This document shows, in pieces, positions 15,605 through 33,958 of a stretch of 41,812 nucleotides of DNA. The translations under genes were made by a program, and so were the position numbers. The notes beneath the pieces were generated by a model. It was not told the DNA's origin, made no database searches, and saw only the letters and a list, made by a program, of their open reading frames with translations. Numbering within the stretch: position 1 is the stretch's first letter; the number at the start of each line of letters is the position of its first letter. The stretch is from a virus, in the IMG/VR virus record IMGVR_UViG_3300001686_000011, positions 1-41,812 of that record. The stretch is one strand, 5' to 3'.

Positions 15605-15633
15605 ACTCTACCCGGTCCGACGGTGGGTGTCAA
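15605..15633 (-). promoter_or_regulatory. Family promoter TTGACA-17-TAGAGT
   Basis: TTGACA at 15628-15633 and TAGAGT at 15605-15610 (minus strand). Arms 15611-15625 and 15634-15648 (one mismatch in 15) place the whole spacer and -35 in a potential hairpin. Confidence 0.8.
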
Positions 15634-16939: not shown

Positions 16940-17458
16940 TCACCGACCGAGCGCCCTCTTGTTCTGCCGCGCGACGATCTTCCGCAGCGCCGCCCACTGC
17001 TCAGCAGACAGCTGCTCGACATCGCGCAGTTCGTGCATGGCCATCACCACCGACACGCGGAACTGGTCATATGCAGTCCGCTCCCGGTCCAGCACCTCGA
17101 AGGTGCGACGGCTATACTCCGCCTGCTCTCGCATCTGCCTGTCGACCTCGGGGGCGTCCAGGCCCACATGTTGGATCAGCAGCTCACGCGCCGCTGCCTG
17201 CCCCTCGGCAGCCTTCGACCGGGCGCGGTCAGCCTCGACCATGAGATGTCCATTCGAGGACTCCAGACGACTGATGCGCCCCTCTCGCTCGCGCGCCCGC
17301 TCTGCCATGCTGGCCACCACTCCCGCGGCAGTGTGCAGCAGGTCGCGCAGTCTTCGTACCCGCTGCTTGTCCAAGGTCAACTGCGGATATGCGTCCGCGT
17401 CGACCAGCTCGCGCAGCTCGCGTGCAGCCTCGATCAGATCCGACTCAGTGTGGCTCAT
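16940..17458 (-). CDS. Coiled-coil protein, hypothetical
   Basis: This 172-aa protein (MSHTESDLIEAARELRELVD...) is charged and helical nearly throughout; residues 52-115 give heptad-like patterns (MAERAREREGRISRLESSNG). It resembles coiled-coil phage proteins of unknown role. It is the first gene after a strong hairpin at 17476-17508, reached by readthrough or an unseen promoter. Confidence 0.6.
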   Translation of the reverse strand: MSHTESDLIEAARELRELVDADAYPQLTLDKQRVRRLRDLLHTAAGVVASMAERAREREGRISRLESSNGHLMVEADRARSKAAEGQAAARELLIQHVGLDAPEVDRQMREQAEYSRRTFEVLDRERTAYDQFRVSVVMAMHELRDVEQLSAEQWAALRKIVARQNKRALGR

Positions 17459-17948: not shown

Positions 17949-17977
17949 ACATTACCCCACCATGCGATGGGTGTCAA
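17949..17977 (-). promoter_or_regulatory. Family promoter TTGACA-17-TAATGT
   Basis: TTGACA at 17972-17977 and TAATGT at 17949-17954 (minus strand), with GGTGT-CA-ACACC core. It drives the 17905 gene. Confidence 0.8.
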
Positions 17978-17995: not shown

Positions 17996-18295
17996 TCACC
18001 AGCCCTGCGAAATCTCCAGGTCGCTGGCGTAATGCTGCGGCCCGAAGCACAACGATGCCGACATGCCGTGTTCGCAGGTCGGGTTGAGCAACCCCCACAA
18101 GATCGGGTACCGGGCCGGCCGCTGCATCAGGTCGCCATCCTCGGGAATGTGAAATGCGTGCGTCGCTCCCCTCTGCTCGACGTACGCCACGGCCGACGCC
18201 TCGGCGTCTGCGTAGGCGTGCCCCTCGAAGGTCACAAGATAGGTGTTGCGGTTGTCGCAGTGATGGGCCTCAAGAGTGATCTTCGCGAGCTGCAT
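17996..18295 (-). CDS. Hypothetical protein behind a structured leader
   Basis: This 99-aa protein (MQLAKITLEAHHCDNRNTYLV...) has a mixed alpha/beta pattern with YADAEASAVAYVEQRG and a late Cys/His segment (NPTCEHGMSASLCFG). No family is recognised. The nearest promoter is 220 bases upstream, leaving a long 5' region folded into a closed structure (18329-18506). Expression may be controlled by that leader, or it may simply follow an independent RNA. ATG 18295 is chosen; an in-frame extension reaches 18331. Confidence 0.6.
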   Translation of the reverse strand: MQLAKITLEAHHCDNRNTYLVTFEGHAYADAEASAVAYVEQRGATHAFHIPEDGDLMQRPARYPILWGLLNPTCEHGMSASLCFGPQHYASDLEISQGW

Positions 18296-18328
18296 GTCTT
18301 GGCCTGCCTTCGGACTGTGCGATTGGGC

Positions 18329-18506
18329 CAACAGCAGAGCGGATGGGCGATGGGGACCAGGACGACCGTCTCACGGTTTCATCCCGCTGAGCTCGCGACC
18401 CTTGCCTCTGTCCGTAGCCTTTCGGCTACCGGGCTGTTCAGGCGTTGCGTTGCCCGGCCTACTTGCTGCCGGTGCTCCCTGGTGATCCCCATCCGCTCTG
18501 CTGTTG
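18329..18506 (-). ncRNA. Structured RNA closed by a 19-bp helix
   Basis: CAACAGCAGAGCGGATGGG is the 5' arm (18506-18488 on the minus strand) and pairs exactly with 18347-18329. The helix extends inward with ACCAGG/CCTGGT. Inside are GTAGCC-GAAA-GGCTAC (a GNRA-type loop), CCGGGC...GCCCGG with 17-nt loop, and ACCG-TGAGA-CGGT. The promoter at 18515-18543 would start RNA within 1-2 nt of the closing helix, so both ends are fixed by structure. It is either a small RNA or the leader of the 18295 gene; I recognise no riboswitch class. Confidence 0.65.
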
Positions 18507-18514
18507 TGAGAACG

Positions 18515-18543
18515 ACGTTACCCCATAATACGCCGGGTGTCAA
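18515..18543 (-). promoter_or_regulatory. Family promoter TTGACA-17-TAACGT
   Basis: TTGACA at 18538-18543 and TAACGT at 18515-18520 (minus strand). GTTACCCCA (18517-18525) and TGGGGTAAC (18553-18561) form inverted repeats spanning it, with the left arm inside the -10. Confidence 0.8.
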
Positions 18544-18563
18544 CACACATGGTGGGGTAACTT

Positions 18564-32761: not shown

Positions 32762-33958
32762 TCAGAGCGTCCAGTCGTTCAGCATGCCCGATGCGTACCG
32801 GCGGTCACCGGGCGACATGCCGTCCGGCAGCTCCACGATCCCCTTGCTGGTGACGATCTGCTTCCCGCGGCCTCGAGCTGCCCAGTTGCCCGGCTGCACA
32901 TCGGCCATGGCCCGGAACACCCACGCGCCGCGCTTCTCCGCCGCCCGCTTCACCGCCGCCAGGATGTGCACAGGGTTGTTGCCGGCGGCCACCAGGCCCT
33001 TGACTTCCTTGCCGACCTGGCCGATCTGGCGGCCGGACGGCTCGAAGCTGAAGCCGCGGCACGCCTCGACGTACAAGCCGACCAAGGTCTTCGTCCACTC
33101 GGACGGGGTGTGCTGCTCGCGCGGCAGCTGCCACGCCATGGCGTCATAGCGGGGGGCATCCACCGGCGCGCTGCGCTTGCGCTTGCCGGTCTCTTCGGGC
33201 TCGGCAAGAAGCCAGGACGCCGAGAGATCGGCGACGGCCGGAATGGTCGGCTCGGCCGGCGCTAGCTCGGTGCCGGGCTCTTCGATGATCTCGGCCTCGG
33301 TCACCTCCGGGCCGGCCGGCGTCGCGCTAGCGGCGTCGGTGATCTTCTGGTTGGTCTCTTCTGCTGGTGGTGAAAAGGACTGGTCGCCGGAAGCCAAGTG
33401 CGTGACACGACCCGATGTCACGCACTTGGCTTCCGAGATCAACTCGTCTGTCACGCACTTAGCTTCCGCGGCTTTGCCCTGCTCGATGGCCTCTGTCACG
33501 CACTCAGCTTCCGAGATCAACTTTGCTCGGCGGCGGCGTTGACGCTCAACCGCAAGCGCCCGCTTGTGCTCCTCGCGGGCATCGATCGGCAGCCAGCCCG
33601 CCGGCACGTCGTACTCGAACCGCAGCCGCCACCGGATCGTGCCGTGGCGGCTCAGCCCATCCCGCTCGACGCGCTTGGCTTCCTCAAGGCGGGCCAGGGC
33701 CGACCGCACCGAGCGCTCGGACACGTGCGCCCGCTCGGCCAGCCAGGCATTCGAGGGGTAGGCGTTGCGGCCGGTCTTGTGGTCAGCCCGAGAGGCGAGG
33801 TTGGCAAGCACCCGGTTGGCCACCTTGTCCTCTGCGCCGCGCCCGTTCAGCAGCGGCGGCAGGGCGGAGAGCCAGTCGAGAGTGCCCTTCCACTGCTGCC
33901 CGTCAAGCAAGTGTGTGTCAACTCGCTGGTCAGTGGCGTTGTGCTGCGGGTCAGTCAT
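32762..33958 (-). CDS. Winged-helix replication initiator-like protein
   Basis: This 398-aa protein has a winged-helix region at residues 60-115 (NAYPSNAWLAERAHVSERSV then RSALARLEEAKRV). Residues 145-195 are a basic and repetitive linker in which EAKCVT/EAECVT recurs, encoded by iteron-like DNA. The C-terminal domain (280-398) has a helix pattern WTKTLVGLYVEACRGFSFEP and a WNAARGRGK-like stretch. It resembles phage lambda-O-type initiators in layout: N-terminal DNA binding, origin repeats within the gene, downstream helicase genes. Identity is inferred from this layout. Confidence 0.7.
   Translation of the reverse strand: MTDPQHNATDQRVDTHLLDGQQWKGTLDWLSALPPLLNGRGAEDKVANRVLANLASRADHKTGRNAYPSNAWLAERAHVSERSVRSALARLEEAKRVERDGLSRHGTIRWRLRFEYDVPAGWLPIDAREEHKRALAVERQRRRRAKLISEAECVTEAIEQGKAAEAKCVTDELISEAKCVTSGRVTHLASGDQSFSPPAEETNQKITDAASATPAGPEVTEAEIIEEPGTELAPAEPTIPAVADLSASWLLAEPEETGKRKRSAPVDAPRYDAMAWQLPREQHTPSEWTKTLVGLYVEACRGFSFEPSGRQIGQVGKEVKGLVAAGNNPVHILAAVKRAAEKRGAWVFRAMADVQPGNWAARGRGKQIVTSKGIVELPDGMSPGDRRYASGMLNDWTL
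33389..33522. repeat. Four iteron-like repeats, candidate replication origin
   Basis: TGTCACGCACTTGGCTTCC occurs at 33416-33434 and inverted at 33389-33407, forming a perfect 19-bp inverted repeat around CGACCCGA. Two more direct copies with one or two changes start at 33449 and 33494; 33416 and 33494 extend the match with GAGATCAACT. They lie inside the initiator gene, as in lambda ori. Confidence 0.65.

Follow-up and report, generated by a model that had tools for sequence, protein, structure and literature searches.

In a tailed phage, the whole of whose IMG/VR record (41,812 nt, with portal and terminase genes) is the window analysed here, one predicted transcript opens on an arm of a long perfect helix, and this raises the question of what such a closed RNA does directly ahead of a short gene: whether it regulates that gene, leaves it as a small RNA or serves the message in some other way. 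The host of the phage is probably actinobacterial, as the relatives of its portal protein point to Actinobacteria.

The closing helix and its promoter

The element (18329–18543) lies on the minus strand, a point that the initial annotation had left unstated. Its two ends form a helix between a 5′ arm, CAACAGCAGAGCGGATGGG (18506 to 18488), and a 3′ arm, CCCATCCGCTCTGCTGTTG (18347 to 18329); all 19 of the 19 positions are Watson–Crick pairs and the span is 178 nt, exactly as had been claimed. Such a repeat is not expected by chance: when the window as a whole was dinucleotide-shuffled 100 times, inverted repeats with arms 50–400 nt apart had a maximum length of mostly 12–13 bp, of 18 bp in one shuffle and of 19 bp in none. 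The fold of the 178 nt is likewise exceptional (z = −6.65, equalled by 0 of 200 shuffles), and the predicted pair probability is at least 0.99 throughout the closing helix, three terminal pairs excepted.

The same cannot be said of what the helix encloses. The 140-nt interior (18348–18487, minus strand), which is non-coding by codon usage and multibranched in the minimum-energy fold, gives a z of only −1.17 when folded alone, with 29 of 200 shuffles equally stable, so that the excess stability is confined to the closing helix. The GAAA-capped hairpin of the initial annotation and two other stems do appear in the minimum-energy fold, namely the GUAGCC-GAAA-GGCUAC hairpin (18414–18429), a GC-rich stem CCGGC/GCCGG with a 9-nt loop (18452–18475) and a third stem of low confidence (18360–18387), all on the minus strand. 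Because the stability of the interior stays within chance, the closing helix is taken as the real feature, and the named stems cannot be claimed.

Upstream of the helix there is a promoter (18515–18543, minus strand) with TTGACA at 18543–18538, a 17-nt spacer and TAACGT at 18520–18515, which belongs to a family with the consensus GTTGACACCC...GGGGTANNGT that is represented by 15 copies in the window and by 143 in the window and its relatives. A conventional distance from the −10 hexamer places the predicted transcription start at 18508/18507, in agreement with the proposal that transcription begins 1–2 nt before the 5′ arm, and the helix would therefore begin at +2/+3. The 5′ arm itself resembles the ordinary leader starts of the family. 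By a measure based on our regular expressions and a ribosome-site rule, 116 of 140 family promoters in the window and the fetched relatives have leaders of 20–50 nt, as compared with 219 nt for the promoter at 18543. Among the same 140 promoters, helices anchored at the start in the other leaders reach at most 10–11 bp.

The downstream gene and the origin of the element

Following the 3′ arm, a further leader (18296–18328, minus strand) with the ribosome site AAGGCAGG leads to the ATG at 18295–18293, 33 nt beyond the helix, and both this distance and the placement of the element in the leader of the gene at 18295 bear out what had been proposed. The 33–34 nt after the 3′ arm and the leader that belongs to the next family promoter (17949–17977, minus strand, accompanied by a weak 6-bp terminator-like hairpin) are homologous, the two leaders being paralogues: 22 of 27 aligned columns are identical, and 0 of 1000 shuffles are as similar. 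Given the tight norm of 20–50 nt and the presence of a paralogous standard leader after the element, the element is best described as extra sequence within an otherwise normal mRNA leader. Since one short gene follows before the next promoter, a short mRNA with its own leader is likely.

The gene in question (17996–18295, minus strand) encodes 99 aa, and its product has no family match in Pfam or PHROGs. Relatives of it occur in other phages with the same promoter family (36–47% by tblastn; 39–51% identity over the aligned part), where they lie in other gene contexts, and the element is not seen upstream of them in the four stretches covered, of up to 900 nt, of which that in L074 offers 107 nt only before the contig start.

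Comparison with syntenic relatives, within about 1.15–1.2 Mb of fetched contigs, suggests how the arrangement arose. The best of these is G020, and G026, G027 and G028 were found through the terminase; both the element and the 99-aa gene are absent from all four. G026 and G027 each have one promoter, similar to that at 17977, after which come a short leader, a short gene and the orthologue of the gene at 16940–17458, in that order, and the corresponding region of G020 and G028 has short-leader promoters only. Taken with the duplicated leader, these absences suggest that a module comprising the 99-aa gene, the element and the promoter at 18543 was added, the element apparently having been inserted within a duplicated promoter-leader.

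No homologue of the element emerged from any of the searches. There was no Rfam match among 4227 families, even at a local E of up to 5; the element DNA gave chance-level matches at most in phages and plasmids; the 19-mer arm occurs in no other viral contig by IMG/VR pattern search; and neither BLAST nor a covariance model made from this one sequence, entered as two identical rows, found a homologue in about 1.2 Mb of relatives, which leaves none to show covariation. Within this coverage of IMG/VR patterns and fetched contigs, neither covariation nor conservation thus backs selection on the helix itself. The element is also non-coding in six frames by codon usage: a 37-aa reading frame within it scores −0.48, as against +0.30 to +0.65 for the genes of the window, and a 621-aa plus-strand frame that runs across it has negative codon usage over the element. 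The packaging RNA of phi29, at 174 nt and closed by a helix between its 5′ and 3′ ends, is similar in size and closure, but its Rfam family is unmatched in the window, the element itself lacks any Rfam match and the phage is of a different kind.

Several candidates were considered and set aside. The sole other strong match of the covariance model, L083:15793–15845, is a terminator-like hairpin; matches to GGCAAGGGTCGCGAG in G020 and G005 fall within open reading stretches of protein-like character and are attributed to chance, as is an arms-pattern match in L229, in apparently coding sequence with a z between −0.65 and −1.36. Another arms-pattern match, from a Lachnospiraceae MAG (L233:3219–3390), is a long, imperfect palindrome with ACATGTATATTGTCCGGAAAAA-type arms and no relation to the element. 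A 16-mer anchored at the start occurs in a promoter context in one viral contig only, L008, where CACAACAGCAGAGCGG at L008:3743 comes after a promoter and is as far from its −10 as in the 5′ arm of the window; as this locus is without the 3′ arm and folds unexceptionally, we take it to have a leader start in common with the element and not to be a homologue of the whole. Two further repeats were noted in passing, an inverted repeat of 25 bp, CGGAAGCTGAGTGCGTTACCGAGGT, which lies in a G020 open frame (L096:9162–9299), and direct repeats TGTCACGCACT..GCTTCCGAGATCAACT at 33416–33522 of the window, which look related to it.

What the closed leader may do

The reading that we favour, tentatively and with a good deal of room for the others, is that the 99-aa orphan gene has a short mRNA whose 5′ leader is sealed by the element, which would act in cis to protect or insulate the 5′ end. 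In such a model, the family promoter would start the mRNA at about 18508, and the first transcribed bases, which look like an ordinary leader of the family, would remain mostly unpaired until some 165–180 nt have been made; folds of successive prefixes likewise predict no pairing of the first several nucleotides before transcription reaches the 3′ arm. The 3′ arm would then capture the complementary 5′ bases, closing the 178-nt domain, with an ordinary ribosome-binding leader of 33 nt and then the 99-aa gene beyond it, and the closed helix, if it forms in cells, could block decay that depends on the 5′ end, following the principle of the 5′-terminal stem-loops of ompA and papA, and insulate the start of the mRNA. 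In E. coli, terminal base pairing stabilizes mRNA, according to Emory 1992 and Bouvet and Belasco 1992 as cited in PMC3997798. As in the ompA and papA leaders, the ribosome site is predicted to be free downstream of a stable terminal helix, and pairing would begin within a few nucleotides of the 5′ end if the mRNA starts where the promoter spacing suggests (+2/+3 for the helix); the element differs from them in that 19 perfect pairs close a 140-nt interior and in that the phage probably has an actinobacterial host. Against the sealed leader weigh the lack of any homologue, and hence of covariation or conservation, within the coverage given above, and a start that is placed by promoter spacing; in addition, a simple hairpin would be enough for 5′ protection, which leaves the 140-nt interior unexplained, and a perfect 19-bp duplex is a plausible substrate of RNase III, cleavage by which would destroy the seal.

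Among other roles in cis, the leader switch raised by the initial annotation was not supported where the ribosome site is concerned. The site is not part of the helix, and predictions of its mean unpaired probability hardly differ (0.45 with the element, 0.51 without it); no alternative pairing of the element with the start region was found, and a simple scan revealed no terminator-like, U-tailed site after the 3′ arm. The near-unchanged accessibility and the lack of a terminator-like site argue against a switch at the ribosome site or by U-tailed termination, making masking of the ribosome site unlikely on these predictions and leaving protection of the 5′ end as the simplest effect in cis. 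A broader form of regulation, with a ligand or a protein of the phage or host binding the interior and so controlling the 99-aa gene, would suit a multibranched fold with a GAAA hairpin in a 5′ leader, yet it seems very improbable in view of the failure to match Rfam, the lack of any expression platform and the chance-level stability of the interior.

A perfect duplex closing a long interior also brings to mind the processing stalks of rRNA precursors, which it resembles, and the 178-nt domain might accordingly be released, by an RNase III cut or by termination after the 3′ arm, and act in trans, in which case expression of the gene would rely on mRNA that has been processed or results from read-through. 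Phage promoters that drive abundant, stable non-coding RNAs are known from the mycobacteriophages L5, D29 and StarStuff, in which regions of about 500 bp at the right end are transcribed without an ORF beyond about 30 codons (PMC5712189), and in several relatives of the present phage promoters of this family open onto an extended, partly conserved region of non-coding DNA and tRNA genes. Common to the mycobacteriophage RNAs and the element is a non-coding stretch behind a strong phage promoter, but here the stretch is of 178 nt within the leader of a gene, and no phage record matched it. With no terminator-like site after the 3′ arm, an interior neither unusually structured nor conserved anywhere searched, and a complete gene leader following directly, we regard a small RNA as rather doubtful, although it deserves consideration. 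Somewhat less likely still is a relic of a MITE-like inverted-repeat insertion or of a rearrangement, devoid of RNA function. The terminal inverted repeats, the lack of coding content, the chance-level interior and the restriction to one phage, with four syntenic relatives lacking the element, are all as such an insertion would have them. Against this, the element is present in a single copy, with no second one in the genome, the viral collection, plasmids or phages (the one pattern match among genome contigs being the Lachnospiraceae palindrome); its flanks, TTCTCA and GCCCAA, have no common direct repeat that would mark a target-site duplication; the 5′ arm looks like an ordinary leader; and its position exactly at the predicted transcription start would have to be coincidental.

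If the helix of the sealed leader does protect the message, the element would be an RNA cap made by a phage on a modular promoter-leader cassette, and would offer a clean natural test of how pairing at the 5′ end sets mRNA life in GC-rich bacteria; if the 178-nt domain is instead excised, it would be a new phage small RNA.

Related layouts and the promoter family

When the 140 leaders were ranked by the length of a start-anchored helix, four relatives were picked out in which such helices, spanning 55–97 nt and unrelated in sequence to the element of the window, follow family promoters. At L063:5947−, TGTCAGGGG at the start site closes with CCCCTGACA through 9 bp over 97 nt, after which a standard leader follows, and the first 100 nt fold at −64.5 kcal/mol. 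The other three (L102:19828−, L219:17733+ and L081:3144+) share a 55-nt start-anchored stem, TGYCGGAGGGG/CCCCTCCGRC, with a slightly shorter 3′ arm in one, and their stems differ by one compensatory change of U-A to C-G. As these amount to two or three independent cases picked by ranking, they are no more than suggestive in support of the sealed leader. A generalization would be that closed RNA domains anchored at the start arise again and again, each time independently, in this group of phages, capturing the first transcribed bases of the standard promoter-leader module and so equipping selected transcripts with a modular 5′ “cap”; the window element would be the longest example. We consider this generalization unlikely.

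At six loci (L102:19828−, L081:3144+, L077:10307−, L090:7259−, L108:2092+ and L219:17733+) the family promoter is followed by a second promoter-like motif, CTTGACAAC, and then by several hundred nucleotides of partly conserved non-coding DNA (AAGATCCCTACGGGGCGTGGACAGACTGG...; ACCCCGTCGGAGAGGTCAGGGG), possibly a family of phage non-coding RNA. Most of these loci have tRNA genes nearby, and tRNAs are all that Rfam recognizes there.

The promoter at 18543 is itself embedded in a terminator-like inverted repeat (18515–18560, minus strand; GTTACCCCA/TGGGGTAAC, 9 bp), whose upstream arm is complementary to the spacer and the −10 region. This is a wider habit of the family, in which the 30 nt preceding the promoter pair, over as many as 18 bp, with the −10 region and the variable spacer, as at the minus-strand promoters 15283, 18543 and 15633 of the window and at L102:12214−, L108:10411+, L211:6089− and L098:6842− in relatives; the longest helix between the upstream and promoter segments averages 6.45 over 143 promoters, as compared with 5.04 (sd 0.09) when the upstream arms are permuted. 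In appearance, these repeats join the terminator of one gene to the promoter that comes next. Beyond roughly ten bases past the −10, the leaders of the same 143 promoters contain almost no T, with frequencies of 1–3% at positions 10–21 and at most 7% at positions 22–24, which gives them a strong signature in composition. Finally, at 15633− and 20214− in the window and at L063:10380+, the first transcribed bases are complementary over 8–11 bp to the start-codon region 41–47 nt downstream, a pairing that could mask these translation starts.
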